DNA of 24,476 nucleotides from a virus (IMGVR_UViG_3300015245_000075:1-24476); one strand, 5' to 3'. Positions 2,008 through 18,102 are shown, counted from the first letter of the stretch. Made by a program: numbers and translations. Notes: a model not told the origin generated them from the sequence alone.

Positions 2008-2191
2008 CGTCCTTTTCGCCCTTATCCTGATCGCCTTGAAGTTATTGGCCGTCCAACTGGTATACTACGGCGGCCCGATGGCCGGTCTTATCATGGTTGC
2101 CTTGTTTTACACCATTGCCTGCTACATCGAACCTACCGCCGCGCCCCCGCGACCGCAGCCGGCGCGATCAAAGCCGGAATTCGGCTCGTAA
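2000..2191 (+). CDS. Possible small membrane protein, opposite strand (doubtful)
   Basis: The 125-base gap between the 906-residue protein stop and the HNH-AP2 start is not open on the minus strand. On the plus strand it is read by a frame with two hydrophobic segments (LLIVLFALILIALKLLAVQL and MAGLIMVALFYTIACYI) and a Pro/Arg tail. A TTG at 2000 has GGGAGAGG 4 bases upstream; the frame stays open back to a TTG at 1958. It overlaps the 3' end of the large internal gene for 59 bases and the first bases of the HNH gene. Third codon positions look GC-rich as in real genes. It could be a small membrane or lysis protein, or an accident. Confidence 0.25.
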   Translation: MLIVLFALILIALKLLAVQLVYYGGPMAGLIMVALFYTIACYIEPTAAPPRPQPARSKPEFGS

Positions 2192-4853
2192 TAGCCGCGC
2201 GCTTGGTCTGGGGACCGAAAAATAGTTGCGTTGCCTCCTTTGCCGCCCGCGCATCCTTGAGCGCACCAGCGGCCTTCTGTACTCCGTGGCCGACGATCGC
2301 CCCCGTGACGCCGTGAGCTCCAAACCCGAGCATGGCCCCGAGATTGTTCATCGCCTTATGCGCGATCTTGGCGCCGATGGTTGCGCTCCCCGATGGATTG
2401 GTGGTTCCCTTGAGTGGCGTCATGCGCCGATAGACCGCAGCCAGCTTGGCCATTTCATCCCGCTCCGCCTTGGTGAATAGGATCGAGGACAGCCCCTTGC
2501 CGCTTTCGTTCAGGAATTCATGCAGCCGCTGTGACAGCGCCTGCGCCTCGAACGGGATTTTGCCCTCGCCGGCATTGGTCAGCTTCTCCCACATGCCCTG
2601 CCGAACCGCCGTCCAGCTTTCCGGCGTCAGGTTCTGCTTGAGATGGGCCGCCAGCCGCTGCGAAATGCCCTTGTCGCCCTTGCCCGTGCGGGAATAAAGC
2701 ATGTCTGTCACTTCGATGGGCGACGCTGGCAGATGGCCGTCCGTACCAGCAATGCGCGCGATGGCTTTCTCAAGATCATTCGCAGGACGCCCAGCCGGTT
2801 CGGTCGCGCGCAGGTTCCGCGCATAGACCGCCATGGCCGAACGATCATCGGCGGTCAAAGCGCCCTTCGCCAAACTCGTTTGCAGGAAATTGTCGATCCG
2901 AGCCGCACGCTTGGCCGGCGAAAGTTCTGCATCGTCAACGTATTTGAACAGCCCGGACTTCCACTGCCCATATTCCTCAGGGCTCAATATCTTCTTGAGC
3001 CGACCGGCCACCTTGACCGAATCGCCAGTGCCGGGATTGGTCTTTGGCCCATATGAAAGCGCTTGGATTTGCTCCGGCGTCGCCTTGGTGTCGGAATATC
3101 GGCCTAGGATTTTCTCGATCGCCCGGCCAATCTCATCCCCCGGCTTGGCCGAATACATGTTCTTATATTCAGCGTGCGAGGCGCGCGCGGCGTCCTGCAA
3201 TTCTTTCGCCAATTTGGCGTCGCCGGAGAAATGGCCATTCGCAAGCCCGTCTGAAATCGCATTGTCGAATTCATGCAGGATGCGGCCCATTGCGCGCCAA
3301 TCGGACTTATCGCCAGACGCTATCCCTTTTTCCTTTGCGTCACGGTACATTGTTCCGAGTTGCTTACGGGCATCGTCTATCGCCCGCAGATCAATCGCGG
3401 GAGGCTTTTCAGCCGCCCCGACCATTTCCATCGGAATGCCGTGGGCCTCCGCAGCGGCCTTTAGAGCCTTCTCAGGGTTGATGCCCTGCGCAATCATCGT
3501 GTCGGAGAGTTCCTTGGCCGCCGCCGACTTCGCCAATTCCTCGGCACTCGCGCGCGGGGCGGCATCGTTCCGGAATAGGCCGCCGTTCCCAACGGTATTG
3601 TCGATAGTTTTGAGCGCCTTGGATGCAATTGATTCGTTGACTGGATCAACATGGATGCGCTCACTGGCGTCACCAGACGCAATGCGCTTGCGAACATCCG
3701 CCGCCAGCCCGCCCGCGAATTCGGGGTTCCAAACGCCCTCAACGGCATCCCGCGCCTTGTAAGCCTCTTTCGTTGCCGCCTTGGCCTCTGCCGCCCTTGC
3801 GGCGATTGCGGCCCCAGTCTGTTCCGCAGCATCAAACGGAGAGACCGGAGCCGCACCACCCCCAAGCCCACGCGCCAAGCTTTCGCCCTCAGCGCCGACC
3901 TGTGAGACCTGCGCAGCAGCGGCAGCCGCTCGCGCCGCCTCTTGCTGCGCCAATTCGGATTGAACCACCTGCCCGGCCGCCTGCGGGGCAGTGCGAGCGG
4001 ACGCGCCAGTCGGGTCAAGGGATTTGATGATATTGCCAGAAGCCTCGGCAACGGCCGCCTGCGCTTGCTGGTCTGCCTGCCTAGCAGTATCCTCAGCCGC
4101 CGTACCGCGCGCGCCGCGACGCATAATCTCCTTTTCTGCCTCAATGGCCGGATCATCCGTCTGATGTACCGGGATTTTTACGCCAGCGACTTCCTCGGTG
4201 ACGGAGGGAATGATTGGGGGCGGACTACGGAAATCCCGATATGCCTGCGCCAGTTTGCCGACCGCGCGGCCCGCCAGCGGCGCCGCAGCACCCACCACCC
4301 CGCCGACCGTGGCCGCCGTCGTCGGGTCCTCCCCGCGCACCAGCGCATCAGCGCCGCCCAGAACCGCGTTCGACGCCGCCCCACGGGCAACCATCTGCGG
4401 CAAGGTTCCGGTAAGACCGAACGCAGCCGGCGCCGCCATCATGGCCGGAATGGTCCCGGCGACGCCGCCCGTGATCTTGGCGGCCGTATCCACCACCGGA
4501 TGCGCCGCAGCGAACTTCTCATCCATCGCGTTCTGCTGGCGCAGCGACTCGGCCCGCCGTTCGGCGAATGTCGCGCCCTTCAATTGGTCCTTTTCGGCAA
4601 ATAGCGGATTGAGAACCGGCGCCAGCGCCGCGTTGGTCGCGGCATCGAGTTGGTTCAGCACCGCGCCGACAATCGGGACACCCGTCGCCGCCGAACGCGC
4701 AACTTTATTAGCCGTCACGGGCTCATCGGCCTTCGCGCCAGCGCCAATCGATGTCGCAATCTGCGCAACCGTCGCGTTCTGGTCCTCCGGCGAGAGTTTC
4801 AGGAACTCATCGCCGACCGTGACCGATTTATCGCCGATGGTAAGCGTCGGCAT
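2133..4853 (-). CDS. Large internal virion (ejection-type) protein, 906 aa
   Basis: The start is the ATG at 4853 (MPTLTIGDKSVTVGDEFLKL), with GGAG 9 bases upstream and a one-base overlap with the previous stop. The opening TIG.K.VTVGD.FL.LSPE.Q is a short N-terminal module seen on many phage internal proteins. A Gly/Ala hydrophobic stretch follows (GGVAGTIPAMMAAPAAFG; VGGVVGAAAPLAGRAVG), then long alanine-rich helices and another such stretch near the C-terminus (AMLGFGAHGVTGAIVG). These could insert in the host membrane during DNA ejection, as proposed for P22 gp16/gp20-type proteins; this is inference. No lytic domain is visible, as the lysozyme is a separate gene downstream. The opposite strand carries many long mirror ORFs. 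Confidence 0.72.
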   Translation of the reverse strand: MPTLTIGDKSVTVGDEFLKLSPEDQNATVAQIATSIGAGAKADEPVTANKVARSAATGVPIVGAVLNQLDAATNAALAPVLNPLFAEKDQLKGATFAERRAESLRQQNAMDEKFAAAHPVVDTAAKITGGVAGTIPAMMAAPAAFGLTGTLPQMVARGAASNAVLGGADALVRGEDPTTAATVGGVVGAAAPLAGRAVGKLAQAYRDFRSPPPIIPSVTEEVAGVKIPVHQTDDPAIEAEKEIMRRGARGTAAEDTARQADQQAQAAVAEASGNIIKSLDPTGASARTAPQAAGQVVQSELAQQEAARAAAAAAQVSQVGAEGESLARGLGGGAAPVSPFDAAEQTGAAIAARAAEAKAATKEAYKARDAVEGVWNPEFAGGLAADVRKRIASGDASERIHVDPVNESIASKALKTIDNTVGNGGLFRNDAAPRASAEELAKSAAAKELSDTMIAQGINPEKALKAAAEAHGIPMEMVGAAEKPPAIDLRAIDDARKQLGTMYRDAKEKGIASGDKSDWRAMGRILHEFDNAISDGLANGHFSGDAKLAKELQDAARASHAEYKNMYSAKPGDEIGRAIEKILGRYSDTKATPEQIQALSYGPKTNPGTGDSVKVAGRLKKILSPEEYGQWKSGLFKYVDDAELSPAKRAARIDNFLQTSLAKGALTADDRSAMAVYARNLRATEPAGRPANDLEKAIARIAGTDGHLPASPIEVTDMLYSRTGKGDKGISQRLAAHLKQNLTPESWTAVRQGMWEKLTNAGEGKIPFEAQALSQRLHEFLNESGKGLSSILFTKAERDEMAKLAAVYRRMTPLKGTTNPSGSATIGAKIAHKAMNNLGAMLGFGAHGVTGAIVGHGVQKAAGALKDARAAKEATQLFFGPQTKRAAITSRIPALIAPAAVAGARR

Positions 4854-8332: not shown

Positions 8333-8791
8333 TCACACATTGGCCCATGAGTTGCCACGAATGGCTTGCCCCATAGCACCGGGGCTGATCCTAAATTTTT
8401 GGGCCAACGACCTGATGGTATGGTCAGAAGTCCCGCGAGCGTAAAGTTTGCGCGCCTCTCGAACGGTACTGGCGGTCAATTTGGCCGACCCGTTGGCCGC
8501 GCCAGTATTAAAATGTTCGCCGCTTGGCGGCTTGGACCATCTCCTTTCCGACAGATTTTCTGACATTCTTATGCATTTGACATTGCCTCGAGCATAAGGG
8601 CCCTTATCGCCATATCGCGCCATCACCAATTGACCGGCGCGGCATCCTCGCAAACTTGACCAATTTGGACCTAAATTTTCTTTCCACCATGCCACCCAAT
8701 CCTCAAATGTAAATTCAAAGGAAATGCCCCGTCTCTTGGCAGCGTGCTTCTGGTAGCTGAAATTCTGCTCATCTTTATTTTTGTAGGACAT
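8333..8791 (-). CDS. Homing-endonuclease-like protein with C-terminal HTH
   Basis: The ATG at 8791 overlaps the gp10-like stop (TGATG), with GGAG 7 bases upstream, giving 152 residues. The N-terminal part has SYQKHAAKRRGISFEFTFED and QLVMARYGDKGPYARGNVKC, typical of small phage endonuclease-like proteins; the GDKGPYA..NVK phrase recurs among them. The C-terminal 55 residues form a helix-turn-helix-like domain of the kind that ends many HNH homing proteins: SAKLTASTVREARKLYARG, then LAQKFRISPGAMGQAIRG and SWANV. I do not see a full canonical HNH triad, so nuclease activity is inferred. The DNA is AT-richer than the genes around it. The next gene starts 3 bases after its stop. Confidence 0.68.
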   Translation of the reverse strand: MSYKNKDEQNFSYQKHAAKRRGISFEFTFEDWVAWWKENLGPNWSSLRGCRAGQLVMARYGDKGPYARGNVKCIRMSENLSERRWSKPPSGEHFNTGAANGSAKLTASTVREARKLYARGTSDHTIRSLAQKFRISPGAMGQAIRGNSWANV

Positions 8792-10551
8792 CAAGTGTCT
8801 CCGGCTGGCTGGGCATTGGCTATCACCCCTCTGATGTACCTCCAAACTGAGCCTGCCGGCACCCTAATTCTTGCCTTCAAGAACTGCGCCTCAATATTCA
8901 CCGAGCAGTCGCCACGGCTATTGATCGCTATCTCCGGCGTATAATTCACCGCTTCCTGCGCCTGATTGCGATACCCGATCGACCCCATCGCGTCGGGCGA
9001 ATCTGTGTACGGCGTAATCCCGTCGAGGAAGATAAACGGCCCCAAATCCTGCTCTGGCGTCTCCACGATGGCCTCAATGTTCGGCCCTGTGAAAAACCCG
9101 AGAATGGCAGTCGGGCCAACAGCTGCAAGCGCGGCAACAGCTGCTGCCGAAATGCTATCCAGCGAGAATGGCAAAGCATCTATCGATCCGGCAATCAGGC
9201 CGCCGCTGGTATAGGCACCCGTAAACGCCACGTTCGTCGTCAGGGTAAACGGCCCGGCCCCGGCAATGGCCGTGATCGTGATATTCCCCTTGTTGATCGC
9301 CGCAGGAAGCCCCCCCGTGCCCGTGACGCCGCTAACCGCAATCCGGTCGTTGACCTGCAACTGTGTTTCGGTCGGCGCGCCGTCCGGCGGCACCGGCCCA
9401 GATACCCGCGCGATGCTCGCCACAGTGAGCACACAGAACCCGCCCGAGTTCGTGACGTTCGTAATGGCAATCGTCCCCGGCGCAATCGTATCCAGCGCCT
9501 CAAGCGTCAATCCAGGCTTGGCCAGATACCCGATATACTGCCCCGACATCGGCACCAGTGACCACGGCCGGTCTTTGATTGACCAATCGAACCACAGGAT
9601 TTTGTCGAACAGCCCCGCAGCGCCTTGCTGCGATTTATAGGCCCATCCGATCCGCGTTCCGGACGGGTCCGCAACACCGATCACAAGTTGCAGATTATTG
9701 CGATCCACGTCCTCGAAAAAGAACGCATCAACCTGCTCTTTGCCGATCGCTACCGGCTCGCCGCCGGACACGATGACCTTGAACCCCTGCGCCGACAGAA
9801 AGAAAGTCCGCGTCCCGGCGTTGACCACGGAATATTCCGCGAAGAGGGTATCCTGCGTCGAGATACGGGCGATTTGAAAGACTGCCGCTGACCCCGGCGC
9901 ATACGTGAGGCTCCGAATTGCCTCGTCCTGAAAAATCACACCGTAGGCATCGCCGCCAGATATCGCATGGCAAACGCCGCCGTCCGGAAAGCTCTGGAAA
10001 TCCGCCAGCCCAACACCGGCCGTCCAAGTCTCCGGCGCGAACAAATCCGACCACGCCACACGCCGCGAATCAGACAGAAGCTCCGTCAGCATCACAAACC
10101 CGTTGACGATGGCAATCTGCCCGGCTTGCGGCGGCGATCCGGCGAGGTCAACAAACGTCGTGCCCGAGGACAAGACAAACTTCTGCGGCACGGTGTTGAC
10201 CTGCACCGCCAGAACGAAGTCATTGAATTGCGCAAATTTCCAGTTCTTGTCCGACGGGATCGTGCCGTAGGCAACGCCGCCCTTACTCACATCTCCCCAC
10301 GCGAAGCTCGAGTTATCAAGTAAATAAAGCCGCGTGGACGTGCTCGCAAAAACCGCTATCGATCCATCCCCGCGCCGGGCGAAGAAGAACCCGCGACAAT
10401 TGGCTGGTAGGGCCTGCGTAAAGCCCACCAGCGATTTGAACGGCCCAAACCCGTCTCCCCGGGGAAGCACGCCGCTGGCGACTGCACACGCATTGATGCC
10501 GAGGTCGGTAAGGTCTGGGAGCCATGGACCAAAATTTATAATATTTGGCAT
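8791..10551 (-). CDS. Tail/DNA-stabilisation protein, P22 gp10-like
   Basis: The 586-residue product starts at the ATG at 10551 (MPNIINFGPWLPDLTDLGIN), overlapping the previous stop as TGATG. The opening F.PW.PD...(N) and the long beta-propeller-like region (RGDGSIAVFASTSTRLYLLD; WKFAQFNDFVLAVQVN; VIFQDEAIRSLTYAPGS; AQGFKVIVSGGEPVAIG) fit P22 gp10 / tail-hub family proteins that plug the DNA channel. About two-thirds along, an Ig-like domain appears inserted (NDRIAVSGVTGTGGLPAAIN, then GPFTLTTNVAFTGAYTSGG). P22 gp10 is about 470 residues, so the insert may account for the extra length. A ribosome site for the next gene is embedded in its 3' end. Confidence 0.75.
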   Translation of the reverse strand: MPNIINFGPWLPDLTDLGINACAVASGVLPRGDGFGPFKSLVGFTQALPANCRGFFFARRGDGSIAVFASTSTRLYLLDNSSFAWGDVSKGGVAYGTIPSDKNWKFAQFNDFVLAVQVNTVPQKFVLSSGTTFVDLAGSPPQAGQIAIVNGFVMLTELLSDSRRVAWSDLFAPETWTAGVGLADFQSFPDGGVCHAISGGDAYGVIFQDEAIRSLTYAPGSAAVFQIARISTQDTLFAEYSVVNAGTRTFFLSAQGFKVIVSGGEPVAIGKEQVDAFFFEDVDRNNLQLVIGVADPSGTRIGWAYKSQQGAAGLFDKILWFDWSIKDRPWSLVPMSGQYIGYLAKPGLTLEALDTIAPGTIAITNVTNSGGFCVLTVASIARVSGPVPPDGAPTETQLQVNDRIAVSGVTGTGGLPAAINKGNITITAIAGAGPFTLTTNVAFTGAYTSGGLIAGSIDALPFSLDSISAAAVAALAAVGPTAILGFFTGPNIEAIVETPEQDLGPFIFLDGITPYTDSPDAMGSIGYRNQAQEAVNYTPEIAINSRGDCSVNIEAQFLKARIRVPAGSVWRYIRGVIANAQPAGDT

Positions 10552-11243
10552 CAGCGACTCGCGTATTGCGAGTTCACCGGCTCCGTAAATGCACGATGCG
10601 GCGACCACCCAAACCGAGATATTCGCTGCTGCACCCGATAATATTCTGGGTGATCTACACCGCCTTCAAAAAAGGATGCAAGAGCACCCCGTCGCCCCTT
10701 GTATTCTATGACGAGGTTATTCCGCTGGTTTTGCGTCTGCTCTGGCGATGTTTCCCATCGGCAGTTTTCGGGGGAATATGGCCCGTTATTGTCCTTGCGC
10801 CCCAGAGAATATTTCCGCCGTCCCGGAGGCCTCATCCCCATATCTGCGAGGAAGTTCTCGAATACCTGCCATCGATCACAGACCTTGATGCCGCGCCCAC
10901 CGTAATTCGGATAGTTGGAGTGGTCTGGATTTTCGCACCGAGATCGCATTGACGACCAAGTGCGATGCTCGGTCGTCTTGGTACGGCCGTGGCGATGGTT
11001 GGCTAGTCCCCGCGCCCTGCCAAGTTCCTTGAAAACACACCCGCACGACATGCTGGTCCCAGCGGTGATCGTGTAACCGTTTATTGCCTTCTCTTTTCCG
11101 CAAGAGCATCGGCATAGCCAATAAATATGAACCGCGCCGGAGGGGAATTGGCGACGCTCAATCGGGCCTATCACATTCAACTTCCCGAATGATTGGCCGG
11201 TAAGGTCTCTGGTGGATGGACGAAGGCTGATAAATTTGGTCAT
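10551..11243 (-). CDS. HNH/AP2-like phage mobile endonuclease with zinc ribbon
   Basis: The 230-residue product starts at the ATG at 11243, 11 bases after the adaptor stop; a TTG at 11258 is an alternative. The N-terminal half opens with LTGQSFGKLNVIG, then a zinc ribbon (WLCRCSCGKEK...SMSCGC). The second half has RTWSSMRSRCENPDHSNYPN, YGGRGIKVCDRWQVFENFL and PENCRWETSPEQTQNQRNN. This combination is widespread in phage accessory proteins usually annotated as HNH- or AP2-like endonucleases; catalysis is inferred from family resemblance. The gene is inserted between the adaptor and the gp10-like protein. Its TGA overlaps the next ATG (TGATG). Confidence 0.75.
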   Translation of the reverse strand: MTKFISLRPSTRDLTGQSFGKLNVIGPIERRQFPSGAVHIYWLCRCSCGKEKAINGYTITAGTSMSCGCVFKELGRARGLANHRHGRTKTTEHRTWSSMRSRCENPDHSNYPNYGGRGIKVCDRWQVFENFLADMGMRPPGRRKYSLGRKDNNGPYSPENCRWETSPEQTQNQRNNLVIEYKGRRGALASFFEGGVDHPEYYRVQQRISRFGWSPHRAFTEPVNSQYASR

Positions 11244-11254
11244 ATTGATGTTTC

Positions 11255-11962
11255 TCAAAACTTCATGGCGACCGTGCGACCAGTCCCTCTTATTTTCGAG
11301 GCTTCGCCCTTGATTTCGTTATAGGCCCGTTCCGCCATCCCGCCGCTGCCCTCATCCGGAGACATCGCCGCAACCATTTTGTCGTTGCGGGTGAAATTCA
11401 GCGCAATCTCGTATTTGGCGCGCGACCGGATAAGCCGCTCCGCATCGTTCATCCATGGATTGGTGACATCCGCCAGCCCGGCAGGCGTCGCGAGGTCCGG
11501 CCCCGCGACGGCGAGATATCCGCCAATGGTCAAGGTATACGACGCAGCCGGCGGGGCCGGATAAATCACAATGGACTGGCCATCCCATCCCCACGAAGTC
11601 GGCGGCCCCGCCTGCTGGCCGGGGATGGTCGCCAGATAAACGTCCTCGGGAAAAACCCGCTCTAGTCGGCAAGGCGTATTGCCAAGCAGGTAATTGATCC
11701 AGTCAATCTTGTAGAGCAAGGGAATGCGCGCGTCGTCGGCGCCCGTGTAGATGTATTGCCCCTGCACCGTGTTGATCACAAACGGCGTCAAAGGGGAAAG
11801 TTCGTTAAAGCGAAAACGTTCTTTGGCATAAATTTGGATCGCGTCAGAAATGGCGTTCGTGATAACCGTAGGATACGCCCCGTCCGGGGCAAGGTCATTA
11901 CGCTGGCCGAGCTCGCTCGCGATGCGAGCGATCATGTCTGTTGCGGATTTCCCGGTGGCCAT
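11255..11962 (-). CDS. Head-tail adaptor protein, P22 gp4-like
   Basis: The 235-residue product begins with a helical segment (ATDMIARIASELGQRNDL; ITNAISDAIQIYAKERFRFN). It then has the strand motif TPFVINTVQGQYIYTG with LYKIDWINYLLGN, and the closing WGWDGQSIVIYPAPPAASY, TLTIGGYLAVAGP and a helical C-terminus. That layout of helices followed by an xF.T..GQ..Y segment and I.IYPAP is typical of gp4-like adaptor / head-completion proteins of podoviruses. These sit under the portal and carry the tail. Its place before a gp10-like gene agrees. The Shine-Dalgarno is weak (AGGA 11 bases upstream). Confidence 0.75.
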   Translation of the reverse strand: MATGKSATDMIARIASELGQRNDLAPDGAYPTVITNAISDAIQIYAKERFRFNELSPLTPFVINTVQGQYIYTGADDARIPLLYKIDWINYLLGNTPCRLERVFPEDVYLATIPGQQAGPPTSWGWDGQSIVIYPAPPAASYTLTIGGYLAVAGPDLATPAGLADVTNPWMNDAERLIRSRAKYEIALNFTRNDKMVAAMSPDEGSGGMAERAYNEIKGEASKIRGTGRTVAMKF

Positions 11963-14657: not shown

Positions 14658-15011
14658 TGCCTGTTTCCTAGCAACGGCTTCTGCATATCGAATTCGGCGC
14701 ATTTCCTTTTCCGCTGCACGCTCTGCTTTTGTCATGGCCTTGCGCCGCGCGCGCCGCGCCGTCCGATGCCGGTAAAGCCAGATGATCGGCGCGACGAAAA
14801 TATAAAACGCGATCACGGCGGCACCCCGGATGAGGATATACAGGCAGACCAAGGCCAGCAGGACCGCCCAAATCGGAGCGCCGATAACCCCGAGGGCGAA
14901 TATCATCAGCGCACCGCCGCCGGTATCCCACCGTGGCCGCAACCAAAGCATCAAGACAACCGCCCCGACGCACGCGATGCAATATCCGATGAAGTCCGCG
15001 TCAAAATCCAT
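14646..15011 (-). CDS. Small membrane protein with basic cytoplasmic tail
   Basis: I take the ATG at 15011 (121 residues), which overlaps the previous stop as TGATG and has GGAGG 8 bases upstream; a TTG one codon earlier is the alternative. Three hydrophobic stretches are visible: IGYCIACVGAVVLMLWL, ALMIFALGVIGAPIWAVLLA with LVCLYILI, and AVIAFYIFVAPIIWLY. These are followed by a strongly basic tail (RARRKAMTKAERAAEKEMRR). The function is unknown; membrane insertion could serve lysis, exclusion or anchoring. The last codons contain the -35-like element of the promoter proposed for the capsid gene. Confidence 0.72.
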   Translation of the reverse strand: MDFDADFIGYCIACVGAVVLMLWLRPRWDTGGGALMIFALGVIGAPIWAVLLALVCLYILIRGAAVIAFYIFVAPIIWLYRHRTARRARRKAMTKAERAAEKEMRRIRYAEAVARKQALTK

Positions 15012-15229
15012 CAATTCATCCTCCGTGGCGGGAGACGATAGCGGATAACCCGATGGGTGTCCGGATCATCCTCGCCGTCGATCCAGTCGAAAAACTGATA
15101 TTCGACCGTTCGGAGCCAGACCTTGTACCGCGTCCGGCCATGGCGCAGTTCGGTGATGGCGTAGGCATCGACATAGACCGGCCGCCACGCGAACCACGGG
15201 AGCCAATTGGAATATGATTCGGTTGGCAT
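15011..15229 (-). CDS. Small hypothetical protein, 72 aa, aromatic-rich
   Basis: The ATG at 15229 directly follows the TAA of the exonuclease remnant, with AAGG 8 bases upstream. The 72-residue product is unusually aromatic and basic (SYSNWLPWFAWRPVYVDAYA; YQFFDWIDGEDD) and ends in HRVIRYRLPPRRMN. It looks like a small compact beta protein. No family is recognised. It overlaps the next gene by one base (TGATG). Confidence 0.65.
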   Translation of the reverse strand: MPTESYSNWLPWFAWRPVYVDAYAITELRHGRTRYKVWLRTVEYQFFDWIDGEDDPDTHRVIRYRLPPRRMN

Positions 15230-15385
15230 TTATCCGGCCTTCGGAATTGCGCCGCGCGAGAGAAATTCCCACGCCTCTTTTGTCCATTTGGCATCGGCGA
15301 GCGCGTGATGTTCGGTCGATGTCTGTTTGGGCAGTTCTGGATTGCCGACAAAATCGCAATATTGCTTTACATCGCGGCATGTCAT
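15230..15385 (-). pseudogene. C-terminal exonuclease remnant (51 codons)
   Basis: A 51-codon frame starts at an ATG overlapping the endonuclease VII stop (ATGA), with GGGAG 6 bases upstream. It opens MTCRDVKQYCDFVGNPEL and contains EHHALADAKWTKEAWEFL. Aligned without gaps to residues 109-142 of the complete exonuclease, 14 of 34 positions are identical, including the motif III pair (H26 and D31 here). Motifs I and II are missing, so it cannot be an active nuclease alone. The TAA stop is immediately followed by the next ATG. I read it as the displaced 3' end of the original exonuclease gene. Its start signals suggest it may still be translated. Confidence 0.78.
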
Positions 15386-15843
15386 TTGCGTCTCCCGTTC
15401 CGCTCGATATAGGCCGCGGCCTCGCGCAGTTTGTTGGGATCATCACAAAACAGCCCGATACCGAAATTGCACGAGCGGCAAAGCAACCCTCTTACAGAGC
15501 CCGTCTTGTGGTTATGATCCACAACGCAGTCTTGAGCGATATTACCCCCGCAGATTCCGCATTGGTCGCGGTGCTTCTGCCTCATCTTCAGGTAAAGCGC
15601 CTCACTGATCCCATAGAGCTTTTTAAGAGCGGAAACCTTTCCGTTAGTTAATCCGGTTGGGCGGACCTTATTCCGATATTTTGTCTTTACGGCGCGACTT
15701 TCTGGCGTAGACGGCTGCGGACCAATTCTCGCATTTCTAGCGCGCGTATGACGGCGGGCACATGTTTGGCATATCAAACGACCGCGCCGTTCAATCTTTG
15801 CAGTATTGCATATGCCACAGTTGGGCCGTCGCTTCAAAGGCAT
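15382..15843 (-). CDS. Recombination endonuclease VII-like His-Me finger nuclease
   Basis: I start the gene at the ATG at 15843 (153 residues), with GAGG 4 bases upstream, rather than at an upstream start deep inside the exonuclease. The C-terminal half, CGICGGNI...DCVVDHNHKTG then VRGLLCRSCNFGIGLF and NKLREAAAYI, is the endonuclease VII signature. DHNH is the His-Me finger and the two CxxC pairs bind structural zinc. The N-terminal part adds another zinc-knuckle-like set (CGICNTAKI...CQTC). T4 endonuclease VII resolves branched DNA before packaging, but small relatives also spread as mobile nucleases. The stop (ATGA) overlaps the start of an exonuclease C-terminal fragment, which favours the mobile reading here. 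Confidence 0.87.
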   Translation of the reverse strand: MPLKRRPNCGICNTAKIERRGRLICQTCARRHTRARNARIGPQPSTPESRAVKTKYRNKVRPTGLTNGKVSALKKLYGISEALYLKMRQKHRDQCGICGGNIAQDCVVDHNHKTGSVRGLLCRSCNFGIGLFCDDPNKLREAAAYIERNGRRK

Positions 15844-16301
15844 TTTGCCTCGTACTTCTGAGCTGTAGCAGCAACCCATTTTGCGTCACTGAGTGCATGG
15901 TGATCATCACCATCCGGCTGCTTCACATCTTTATGGCCGTTCATGTCCAGCCATTGACGAAGATCATAACAGATCATCGGCCACCCTTTCGGAAGGTCCA
16001 TCATCGTGCCGAATAACTGGCAGAGAACAACCCAATCATAATCGGCGTAGTAAGCCCAAAACTCAGGCTTGTCGCCAGCGAACTGTCGAACCGTTGCGGC
16101 TATTTCCGATCGCGTCGCACCGTGATTCAGCCAATCCAAATGCACGATAACGTTGTGCTGAACCCAATCACCGCCGCGCGATAGATCGGCCTCGTTGTTT
16201 TCGAGATAGAACGTCGCGCCATCCTCCCGCACCATGCCGATGCTCAAAAGGTCAATGGTTTTGCCGTCCTCAATGAATTCAGTATCGAAAAATACGCGCA
16301 T
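15834..16301 (-). CDS. 3'-5' exonuclease, Rv2179c-like (DEDDh)
   Basis: The 155-residue product matches the Rv2179c-like 3'-5' exoribonuclease family in length and motifs. FFDTEF supplies D6 and E8. LLSIGMVREDG is the usual second strand. ADYDW (D87/D89) is motif II and HHALSDAKW (H134, D139) motif III, so the acidic residues and the histidine needed for two-metal catalysis are all present. The family trims RNA or DNA 3' ends; its role in this phage is unknown. AAGGA lies 10 bases before the ATG, within the short segment between this gene and the divergent HNH gene. Upstream coupling is lost because the HNH gene separates it from the scaffold. It overlaps the endonuclease VII start by 10 bases. 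Confidence 0.88.
   Translation of the reverse strand: MRVFFDTEFIEDGKTIDLLSIGMVREDGATFYLENNEADLSRGGDWVQHNVIVHLDWLNHGATRSEIAATVRQFAGDKPEFWAYYADYDWVVLCQLFGTMMDLPKGWPMICYDLRQWLDMNGHKDVKQPDGDDHHALSDAKWVAATAQKYEAKCL
16276..16289. repeat. Direct repeat, left copy, flanking HNH gene
   Basis: The plus-strand sequence AATTCAGTATCGAA matches AATTCGGTATCGAA at 16836-16849 at 13 of 14 positions, in the same orientation. On the minus strand both encode F-D-T-E-(F) of the exonuclease start. This copy lies in the complete exonuclease. The pair flanks the opposite-strand HNH gene at a spacing of 560 bases. Confidence 0.7.
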
Positions 16302-16318
16302 CGGATATATTTCCTTTT

Positions 16319-16837
16319 ATGATTTGCAAAACGCCAAACTGCGAAAGACCAATCCACAATAAGCGCCTAGCGCTTTGTAAGCGCTGTTATTCCTACAAAT
16401 GGGCGATCGAGCGGGAGGCTTCCGACGCACCAAAATGCTCCATAGGAGATTGCCAATCCGTCGCTAGAGTTAAGGGATTATGCTTCATCCATTACAAGCG
16501 AGCGCGCCGTAACGGCGGAGACCCGTTGGCTGCGCCCGGACGAGGCTCCCCGGGAAAACGTCGCGGTATTCGCAGCATGAAGGGTGAATATATCACCAAC
16601 TCTGGTTATCGCCGGATCCGAACACCAGATGGCAAGTGGATTGACGAACATCGACATGTGGTCGAGATCAAACTTGGTCGAGAGTTGTTGCCAAGCGAAA
16701 ACGTACACCATATAGACGGCAGCAAACTGAATAACGATCCTGAAAATCTTGAATTGTGGATCAAGCCGCAGCCATCTGGCGTGCGGATTGAAGACGCGAT
16801 CACTTGGGCACGCGAGATCATCAGAAGATATACATAA
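16319..16837 (+). CDS. HNH homing endonuclease with N-terminal zinc knuckles, opposite strand
   Basis: This is the only well-supported plus-strand gene in the window. The 172-residue product starts with two cysteine pairs plus partners (CKTPNC...CKRC and CSIGDC...CFIH), which look like zinc-binding DNA-contact modules. The linker is basic. The HNH core follows: EHRHVVEIKLGRELL, VHHIDGSKLNNDPENLEL. Such proteins nick or cut DNA at one site and drive copying of their own gene. The surrounding DNA is visibly AT-richer than the flanking scaffold gene (27 of 60 bases are G or C at 16321-16380). No Shine-Dalgarno is seen before the ATG, so expression may be weak or leaderless. The gene sits between direct repeats made from exonuclease codons. 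Confidence 0.85.
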   Translation: MICKTPNCERPIHNKRLALCKRCYSYKWAIEREASDAPKCSIGDCQSVARVKGLCFIHYKRARRNGGDPLAAPGRGSPGKRRGIRSMKGEYITNSGYRRIRTPDGKWIDEHRHVVEIKLGRELLPSENVHHIDGSKLNNDPENLELWIKPQPSGVRIEDAITWAREIIRRYT

Positions 16838-16849
16838 TTCGGTATCGAA
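16836..16849. repeat. Direct repeat, right copy, flanking HNH gene
   Basis: This is the second copy of the 14-bp repeat (AATTCGGTATCGAA on the plus strand). It overlaps the last two bases of the HNH stop codon and lies in the 8-codon exonuclease remnant. It marks one insertion boundary: exonuclease-like coding sequence on one side, HNH sequence on the other. Confidence 0.7.
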
Positions 16850-16861
16850 CCAGATTCTCAT
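16838..16861 (-). pseudogene. 5' remnant of an exonuclease gene (8 codons)
   Basis: Immediately at the scaffold stop (ATGA at 16861-16858) a frame begins MRIWFDTE. The complete exonuclease 560 bases further on begins MRVFFDTEF. MR-[FW]-DTE is the start of the Rv2179c-like 3'-5' exonuclease family, with catalytic Asp and Glu. Homology stops exactly where the opposite-strand HNH gene ends: its TAA, read in reverse, forms the next codon, TTA. From there the frame runs antisense through the HNH gene to 16478 without any exonuclease resemblance. I read this as the front end of the original exonuclease gene, still coupled to the scaffold as other genes in the operon are coupled to each other. Confidence 0.7.
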
Positions 16862-18102
16862 TGCGGCACCTTGCCCATCATCCGGTCAAACTGATCCTTG
16901 GGGATGCTGTCGTAATACCGCTCGAATTCCTCCGGCGACATATCCGCGATGCGCTGCGGCGTCATATTGGCCCCAGGCGATCCGCCAGCGTCCGAAAGTG
17001 AGCGCGAGGCTTCCAGATTGTCCCGCACGGCGTTCAGTTGGTCCTTGACGGATGGCTGTTTCCCGCCAGCCGCAGGGGCCGCAGAGCCGTTGCCGGGCTT
17101 GGCCGCACCATTCCCGCCCCGGGCAGCCGCAGCCGCCTCAGCGGCCCCGCCATCAGCCTCAGCGGCCGCCTTGGGCTTCCACCCTCGAGCCTTGGCGAGA
17201 TTGGCGATCACGGCCGCGGGCGACCGGCCAGCGCCGATGGCCTGCCGAGCGACCAAAAGCTGCTCGTTCATGAACGTGCGCTGGATATTTTGGGATAGTT
17301 CCGCCTGTTCCTTCGGCGTCAACGTCGCGCACTGGGCCACGTCGTTGATATCGATATTCGCGAAGATATGCCCGAGTTCGGTGAACCTGGTCTCCCGCAG
17401 ATGCACGAATGCGTCGGTAAAGGTTGGGTCTGCCGCGACCGTGCGGCTGATATCGGCATCAAGGTCCTGCATGACCTGCCGCTCCTCGGTTTCGGCGGCC
17501 GAAACCTCTTGCTGCTTCTTCTGGCCGCCCTTGATCTCGTCTAGTTCCTTCCGGAACTGGCGGTTTTCCCATTGGGTATGCCCAATCGGGTCCTCATCGG
17601 CGTTCGGTTCCGGATCAGCAGGTTCCGCAGCGGCGGCCGCTGGCGCTGGCTTGGCCTGAATGGCCTCAAGCAGCATCTTCGTTCGCTCGTCCAGCCGCAG
17701 GCGGTCCTCTCGCTCCTTCTTGGTCTCATTGCGAGCGCCGTCGAGTAGCGCCTGCAGATCGGTACGGGCCTTCTCGGCTTTGGCGAGTTCCTTCTGGTGC
17801 CGGCCATAGCTGATCGTCTTGGGTTTGCGCTGGGTGCCGTCGGCAGCGGCAGGTTCGCGCTCTCCAGGCGCGGCGTCGCCATCGGCAGGCTCGCCCTCAA
17901 TTGGCTCATCGTCCGGGTCTGCATCCGGGTCGGGATCAATGGGCCCACCGGATGGGTCAACGTTGCCGCCCTCCGGCGTGCCACCCTCGCCTGCCTGCAT
18001 GGCGTCAAGCTGCGCCTGCTCCTCAGCCGTCAGGCCGTCGATCGGGGCCGGACCGGACGACGCGCCTTGATCGGTATCGGGGAGTTTCTCGGGGTTAACC
18101 AT
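16858..18102 (-). CDS. Scaffolding protein
   Basis: The 414-residue protein has the composition expected of a scaffold. Residues 1-105 are acidic and disordered (DPDADPDDEPIEGEPADG). Next comes a basic helical, coiled-coil segment (SYGRHQKELAKAEKARTDL; NETKKEREDRLRLDERTKM). A Pro/Ala/Glu linker and a helical region with FVHLRETRFTELGHIFANI follow. The chain ends in a helical C-terminus, PEEFERYYDSIPKDQFDRM. P22-like phages place the scaffold after the portal, as here. It would direct procapsid assembly and leave before DNA packaging. AAGGA lies 8 bases before the ATG. The stop overlaps, as ATGA, the 5' remnant of an exonuclease gene. Confidence 0.82.
   Translation of the reverse strand: MVNPEKLPDTDQGASSGPAPIDGLTAEEQAQLDAMQAGEGGTPEGGNVDPSGGPIDPDPDADPDDEPIEGEPADGDAAPGEREPAAADGTQRKPKTISYGRHQKELAKAEKARTDLQALLDGARNETKKEREDRLRLDERTKMLLEAIQAKPAPAAAAAEPADPEPNADEDPIGHTQWENRQFRKELDEIKGGQKKQQEVSAAETEERQVMQDLDADISRTVAADPTFTDAFVHLRETRFTELGHIFANIDINDVAQCATLTPKEQAELSQNIQRTFMNEQLLVARQAIGAGRSPAAVIANLAKARGWKPKAAAEADGGAAEAAAAARGGNGAAKPGNGSAAPAAGGKQPSVKDQLNAVRDNLEASRSLSDAGGSPGANMTPQRIADMSPEEFERYYDSIPKDQFDRMMGKVPQ

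Follow-up and report, generated by a model that had tools for sequence, protein, structure and literature searches.

An intact phage exonuclease gene set between the remnant ends of a second copy: evidence consistent with homing elements that supply replacement gene ends

Selfish endonucleases that lie in coding sequence are usually accommodated by introns, by inteins, or by leaving the invaded gene in working pieces. A different arrangement has been described in fungal mitochondria, where endonuclease open reading frames carry a foreign C-terminus and the displaced native C-terminus lies downstream; the cases are atp6 of Allomyces macrogynus and atp6, atp9, cox2 and nad3 of Glomus sp. (PMC3630166). 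In phages, essential genes bracketed by homing endonucleases are described as HEG-islands in ICP1 and others (PMC10448857). Free-standing homing endonucleases occur in T4-like phages, and in phage Aeh1 the mobE gene splits nrdA (review, PMC2988022). F-CphI of cyanophage S-PM2 is a homing endonuclease with an endonuclease VII motif (PMC6083498).

The stretch of DNA analysed here, referred to as the window, is the 24,476-base IMG/VR virus record IMGVR_UViG_3300015245_000075. The phage encodes a capsid protein of the Phage_capsid_3 family and a portal of the P22 type. Along the minus strand, the portal gene is followed by the scaffold-position gene, the truncated start of an exonuclease gene, an HNH gene in antisense orientation, an intact exonuclease gene, the gene for an endonuclease VII-type protein, the truncated end of an exonuclease gene, a gene for a 72-aa protein, a gene for a 122-aa hydrophobic protein, and capsid (Table 1).

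Table 1. Features of the exonuclease slot in the window and of the corresponding locus in a second phage record, L229
Feature	Coordinates	Strand	Remarks
Scaffold-position gene	16858..18102	-	Between portal and major capsid genes; stop overlaps ATG of 5' remnant
5' exonuclease remnant	16838..16861	-	MRIWFDTE (8 codons); broken off within catalytic motif I
HNH endonuclease gene	16319..16837	+	172 aa, antisense; end flush with 5' remnant
New translation start region of intact exonuclease	16302..16318	-	AAGGAAA ribosome site at 16310-16316, between HNH ATG and exonuclease ATG
Putative substitute 5' end of intact exonuclease	16275..16301	-	Codons 1-9, MRVFFDTEF; substitution suggested by VF versus IW
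Body of intact exonuclease	15978..16274	-	Codons 10-108, native-type; 69-73% to L121/L127/L133
Putative substitute C-terminus of intact exonuclease	15834..15977	-	Codons 109-155 and stop; motif III HHALSDA
Endonuclease VII-type gene	15382..15843	-	153 aa from ATG at 15843; overlaps both neighbours
3' exonuclease remnant	15230..15385	-	51 codons, homologous to residues 109-end
72-aa gene	15011..15229	-	Downstream neighbour of the slot; 54% homologue in L044
L229 HNH gene	2680..2111	antisense	Sister of window HNH
L229 intact exonuclease	2698-3168		
L229 LAGLIDADG gene	3226-4026		In the position of endonuclease VII
L229 3' exonuclease remnant	in frame about 3990 to 4256		phrog_2259, E=3e-15

The junctions between these elements are tight. 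The scaffold stop and the ATG of the 5' remnant overlap in CAATGAGA, and the stop codon TAA of the HNH gene (plus strand, 16835-16837) lies in GATACCGAATTATG, immediately after the eighth codon of the remnant. The HNH and intact exonuclease genes are arranged head to head, with 17 bases between their starts. The ATG of the endonuclease VII gene sits within the end of the intact exonuclease gene (AAAATGCCTTTGA). Its stop codon and the start of the 3' remnant overlap in AAATGACATG, and the stop of that remnant adjoins the ATG of the 72-aa gene in GGATAAATGCC. The original prediction had placed the elements at these positions, and inspection of the sequence agreed with it for the ATGA overlap at the scaffold gene, the MRIWFDTE start, the end of the antisense HNH gene and the 51-codon frame that stops flush with the next gene. 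As the 5' remnant ends at codon 8 and the 3' remnant starts at codon 109, all original codon positions are present across the locus.

The locus shares with the fungal mitochondrial type the succession of gene body, putatively foreign C-terminus, endonuclease ORF and displaced native C-terminus, and in both, the displaced terminus groups among native relatives, the inserted terminus with other lineages. It differs in being from a phage and in having two endonuclease genes in one exonuclease gene, of which the 3' one is of the endonuclease VII type and the 5' one is an antisense HNH gene. The Glomus endonucleases are LAGLIDADG or GIY-YIG proteins, and transcription of the hybrid genes was shown in Glomus (PMC3630166). 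As in HEG-islands, in which the endonuclease classes are interchangeable, the exonuclease of the window has an endonuclease gene on each side, and the two belong to different families; in contrast, a second copy of the bracketed gene is represented on either side by one of its ends, a case not found in the passages of the HEG-island description that were consulted (PMC10448857). With the free-standing homing endonucleases of T4-like phages and with mobE in nrdA of Aeh1 the locus has in common an endonuclease gene inserted in a phage coding sequence and, putatively, co-conversion of flanking sequence (PMC2988022). F-CphI, of the DHHRN family, is a precedent for homing by an endonuclease VII-type protein. 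In Aeh1 nrdA is left in pieces, whereas in the window the pieces would be relics and a complete gene is supplied. Both pieces of the Aeh1 nrdA are needed. No paper on replacement gene ends in phages was found in a limited search of the open-licence literature.

The intact exonuclease (16301-15834, minus strand; 155 aa) is of the RNase-AS-type DEDDh group and is matched over its full length by PF16473 (E=6.6e-13) and phrog_2259 (E=7.8e-49). It retains D6, E8, D89, H134 and D139, each of which is invariant in an alignment of 51 sequences. The structure model has a mean pLDDT of 96, with the putative substitute C-terminus forming the last two helices, and its best PDB match is mycobacterial RNase AS, 6s0m. 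The window protein thus resembles RNase AS (Rv2179c, PDB 4oke/6s0m) in fold (TM 0.92) and in all DEDDh residues and differs from it as a phage homologue with 37% identity. The remnants contain at most part of an active site.

Assignment of the 51-codon frame to the exonuclease family is based on a match to positions 130-174 of the 186 in the phrog_2259 profile (E=1.1e-9), a match to positions 111-155 of a family model built from the fetched homologues (E=4e-17), and a search of GenBank phages with the remnant alone, which gave 118 records at E<=0.01, the matches listed being annotated exonucleases. Hence the 3' remnant is not a chance match; the possibility that it belongs to an unrelated family was looked for and failed, and the identity of 14/34 residues to the intact copy claimed earlier was borne out. 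The last 47 residues of the intact copy, searched alone against GenBank phages, gave zero matches. Thus, the C-terminus typical of the family is found in the remnant, and the atypical one in the intact copy.

Relatives of the phage support the earlier proposal that a single exonuclease gene once filled the slot, and the condition set for abandoning it, that uninterrupted relatives never have an exonuclease there, did not hold. In records L044, L045 and L050 one uninterrupted phrog_2259 exonuclease gene directly follows the scaffold gene; L045 and L050 have the ATGA overlap of its start with the scaffold stop that is seen in the window, and in L044 the next gene is homologous to the 72-aa gene. 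The exonuclease of the slot relative falls in phrog_2259 (E=1.1e-34) but is of a distant type. The closest relative overall, L043 (portal 94%, scaffold 92% and capsid 98% identical), is a 65-kb record from which such an exonuclease and the 72-aa gene are absent. Thus, the slot is variable, and L043 is unusable as an empty allele. Homologues of the 72-aa gene were found in L044 and L214 only, the latter without the exonuclease, and an exonuclease search of the genome contigs gave two distant relatives only. No uninterrupted close relative of the window phage with an exonuclease of the type described below was found, and the native body is inferred through relatives that are ~73% identical.

Over codons 10-108, the intact copy has 69-73% identity to L121, L127, L133, L274 and L307, all of which start with M-x-IWFDTEF (IW type), like the 5' remnant; I3 and W4 of that remnant are common to the exonucleases nearest to the body of the intact copy. 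The nine nearest of 127 family members to the body are all of the IW type, which accounts for 18 of the 127. In an earlier set of 85 sequences, 11 of them IW, the top six were likewise all IW (hypergeometric 1e-6, a value that takes no account of relatedness among the sequences). The 3' remnant follows the same pattern, being 77-79% identical to L119, L123 and L121 (nearest relative 79%), and in the set of 85 it has four IW-type sequences as its nearest four. By contrast, none of the ten sequences nearest to the intact copy's C-terminus in that set is IW.

The disparity between the two parts of the intact copy is unusual within the family. Its residues 109-142 are 32-44% identical to sequences whose bodies match at >=65%. 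Among family pairs with a body identity of >=65%, 8 of 325 (2.5%) have a C-terminal identity of <=41%, as against 14 of the 16 such pairs that involve the intact copy; in the first set, none of 93 family pairs fell so low. Similarity to the native type is lost at codons 109-114, and the 3' remnant starts at codon 109. By identity, the nearest C-terminus is that of L229 (22/39), and the intact C-terminus, L229 and L002 have D-L-R-Q..L-D-x-N/K-G and Q-P-D in common.

In phylogenetic trees, the intact copy groups with L127 for the body (97/85) and with L002 for the C-terminus (96/89). Constraining the intact C-terminus with eight IW-type sequences was rejected (p 0.03), as was constraining the 3' remnant with the same eight (p 0.04), so that the short C-terminal tree cannot define the IW group. 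A single clade of the body with L002 was not rejected (AU p 0.15). When the intact copy was compared with L121 and L002 alone, the preset split gave a Fisher p of 0.014 and a free scan for the breakpoint a non-significant permutation p of 0.12. Base composition of the segments gave no separation of native from foreign parts. The original prediction had expected that, with separate insertions, the middle would group with native alleles and the ends would not. The middle does group with native-type alleles and the C-terminus apart from them; at the 5' end, the putative replacement comprises two or three residues only (VF versus IW). On short segments and with moderate support, the displaced terminus goes with native alleles and the inserted one with another lineage. 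These data provide moderate evidence that the product translated today would be a chimera of a native body and foreign ends.

The HNH protein matches PF13392 (HNH_3; E=2.5e-8) and phrog_20891 (E=8e-26). Its nearest relative found is the HNH protein of L229 (43-45% identity), which is its sister in the tree (94/86) and occupies the same motif-I codon of an exonuclease gene; other HNH relatives are located elsewhere, e.g. in L192. Three other HNH genes of the window are absent from L043, and the genes next to them keep their ends, with no duplicated terminus. Replacement of gene ends is thus not a general habit of the homing endonuclease genes of this phage. The endonuclease VII-type protein matches PF02945 at positions 4-81 of 82 (E=3.9e-19) and phrog_2914 (E=3e-28) and retains the DHNH...R...N motif. 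A scan of the viral contigs with this protein confirmed no relative, and among the matches listed from GenBank phages identity was at most about 36%. The context of insertion alone suggests that it is a homing enzyme rather than a Holliday-junction resolvase.

An independent second instance was found in L229 (IMGVR_UViG_3300012211_000004), whose portal is of the SPP1 type and which is therefore from a phage unrelated to that of the window. Its 5' remnant, a ribosome site and MTRFFYDTD from 2051, stops at the same motif-I codon as that of the window, and the remaining elements follow in the same order (Table 1). The stop codon TAG of the LAGLIDADG gene adjoins the native motif-II codons GCTTACGAC. 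The body of the L229 exonuclease is ~85% identical to the uninterrupted L295, and similarity collapses past the same P-M codon (the DNA alignment ends at 3036). The 3' remnant of L229 is not of the L295 type (35/68, 51%). The window and L229 are the only records with double remnants across all fetched loci. HNH-like motifs near an exonuclease gave six matches in these loci, L229 among them, and most were weak.

The arrangement is best explained by two homing elements that inserted separately, each with a substitute gene end, a reading to which a probability of roughly 0.6 is assigned. Alternatively, one HEG-bracketed HNH-exonuclease-endonuclease VII cassette may have replaced the middle of the native gene and left its ends in place, its cargo being a replacement allele of the target. 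HEG-islands that bracket essential genes are described (PMC10448857), the AU test above tolerates the window body with L002, and in L229 the allele type of the body differs from that of the remnants, as replacement of the whole gene would have it unless the relic drifted; there, such replacement fits better. In the window, however, both remnants share the IW type with the body, and the change of lineage in the intact copy at the point where the 3' remnant starts would be a coincidence if the whole cassette had been exchanged. The 3' endonuclease is an endonuclease VII-type protein in one case and LAGLIDADG in the other while the HNH is shared, which indicates that the elements are separable and argues against one fixed cassette. 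Moreover, a cassette that spreads by flanking homology must already reside inside an exonuclease gene. For the window, two separate insertions are therefore favoured, and exchange of a single cassette is considered rather unlikely.

Other explanations are far less probable. It is very unlikely that the insertions duplicated the gene's own ends and that the copy in use then diverged fast, with nothing foreign involved: divergence after insertion is allowed by the authors for some of the fungal hybrids (PMC3630166), but the divergent C-terminus shares motifs with L229 and L002 and groups with L002, which is not random drift, and the copy in use keeps all catalytic residues, the unused remnant being the canonical one. 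Joining of two phage strains with different exonuclease genes during assembly would be conceivable for a single metagenomic contig, and strain breaks at an exonuclease gene are seen in other loci (L005/L042). All junctions are nevertheless tight start/stop overlaps, and the recurrence of the same order and the same motif-I junction in a separate record from the unrelated L229 makes misassembly unlikely, to the point of being most improbable. Two self-splicing introns, the splicing of which would join the 5' remnant, the body and the 3' remnant into the native protein, are scarcely credible. In-frame joining of the three pieces, at codons 8/9 and 108/109, would be possible, but no group I, group II or other Rfam match was present in 14900-17100 on either strand at E up to 1, and a scan of L229 likewise gave no intron match. 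There is also almost no non-coding room, as the endonuclease VII gene overlaps both neighbours and the HNH gene leaves 17 bases, and even without splicing the exonuclease gene is complete and has a ribosome site, with the HNH gene antisense to it. An intein was rejected because each piece ends in a stop codon before the insert.

On the favoured reading of two separate insertions, the slot between the scaffold and 72-aa genes would originally have contained a single 'IWFDTEF'-type exonuclease gene of the RNase-AS-like DEDDh group. The HNH gene would have entered at the motif-I codons GATACCGA; for the endonuclease VII-type gene the site would have been codon 109, a conserved methionine (W-P-M). 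The probable source of each element is a related exonuclease gene in which that endonuclease was already present, with transfer by recombination. With such a donor, the element would bring its own version of the severed end. The replacement would comprise a ribosome site and MRVFFDTE at the front and a complete foreign C-terminus of 47 codons with catalytic motif III at the back, and the displaced native ends would be left as the remnants of 8 and 51 codons.

The endonuclease is envisaged to break the uninterrupted gene at the conserved codons. The break end on the side of the gene body would then pair with the donor exonuclease gene and copy the donor gene end together with the endonuclease gene, and microhomology of a few bases would serve to rejoin the far end. 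ATGA is common to the stop of the endonuclease VII gene and the native codon, and the HNH stop falls in GAATT. Such a mechanism would account for the hits at motifs, the foreign ends in use, the native ends outside and the endonuclease stops located on the junctions. Endonuclease activity, the order of events and expression of the locus are inferred from the sequence. The best inference is that the elements bring the means to repair the gene that they hit, and the survival of the gene seems to be due to the replacement for the severed piece that came with each invader.

It is tentatively proposed that phage homing endonucleases may have a third, splicing-free mode, in which they cut the codons of catalytic motifs and insert together with a replacement end, so that the gene acquires a new end instead of being destroyed. 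One HNH lineage may have specialised on motif I of RNase-AS-like exonucleases, with varied 3' partners, and repeated rounds may exchange exonuclease ends between phages. The question can be tested directly, since the reading predicts two target sites, each a few codons long, as well as a resistant allele and an enzyme that is chimeric.

If confirmed, the arrangement would represent a further answer to selfish endonucleases in phage coding sequence, one known in the literature found so far only from fungal mitochondria, with new ends at both termini of one gene and in two unrelated phages. Genes annotated as 'truncated duplicates' may then be relics of this kind rather than errors. The arrangement would also explain why, in this family, the ends of an exonuclease can follow different trees from the middle. 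With the same layout in a second, unrelated phage, replacement of gene ends looks like a way for endonucleases to persist within useful genes with no need of an intron or intein.

Besides the pair in the exonuclease slot, the 24 kb of the window contain four further endonuclease-like genes, three of which are clear HNH genes. L043, the closest relative of the window phage overall, lacks three of them. These genes have small overlaps with the genes on either side, and no duplicated gene ends are left beside them.

Further endonuclease-like genes of the window
Gene	Position	Strand	Remark
HNH gene	288-794	minus	clear
HNH gene	1507-2007	minus	clear
Endonuclease-like gene	8333-8845	minus	sole match is an uncharacterised PHROG
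HNH gene	10551-11258	minus	clear

Among the other loci, an endonuclease VII gene lies ~200 bases downstream of another exonuclease of the phrog_2259-type family in L014 (5353-5838) and also in L256, with no exonuclease remnant visible at this gene in either. An antisense HNH gene is located ~150 bases past an exonuclease of this family in L252 and L254 (3317-3808). Two strain versions, represented by L041 and L042 and by L005 and L006, have exactly 123 bases in common and then diverge; one includes a full exonuclease, whereas in the other the exonuclease is ended by the next gene after ~21 codons.

The portal gene of L111 (7301-8500) and L113 (2201-3400) includes an in-frame intein-like insert (GMGWCLSDD..LVRLPE...TGTPNHPVLTDMGWKRL) holding a long antisense reading frame, which could encode an endonuclease. 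The capsid gene match in L110 (12314-13952) is in three pieces, residues 9-133, 130-356, and 329-370, which suggests an insertion and a frame change.

L124 carries an orphan exonuclease C-terminus (4001-4186) that is 72% identical to the 3' exonuclease remnant of the window, and the similarity begins at the W-P-M codon, as at the window. No endonuclease gene is found nearby. The orphan C-terminus is possibly a relic of the process proposed for the window, in which a displaced native gene end stays behind, with the element having since been lost.
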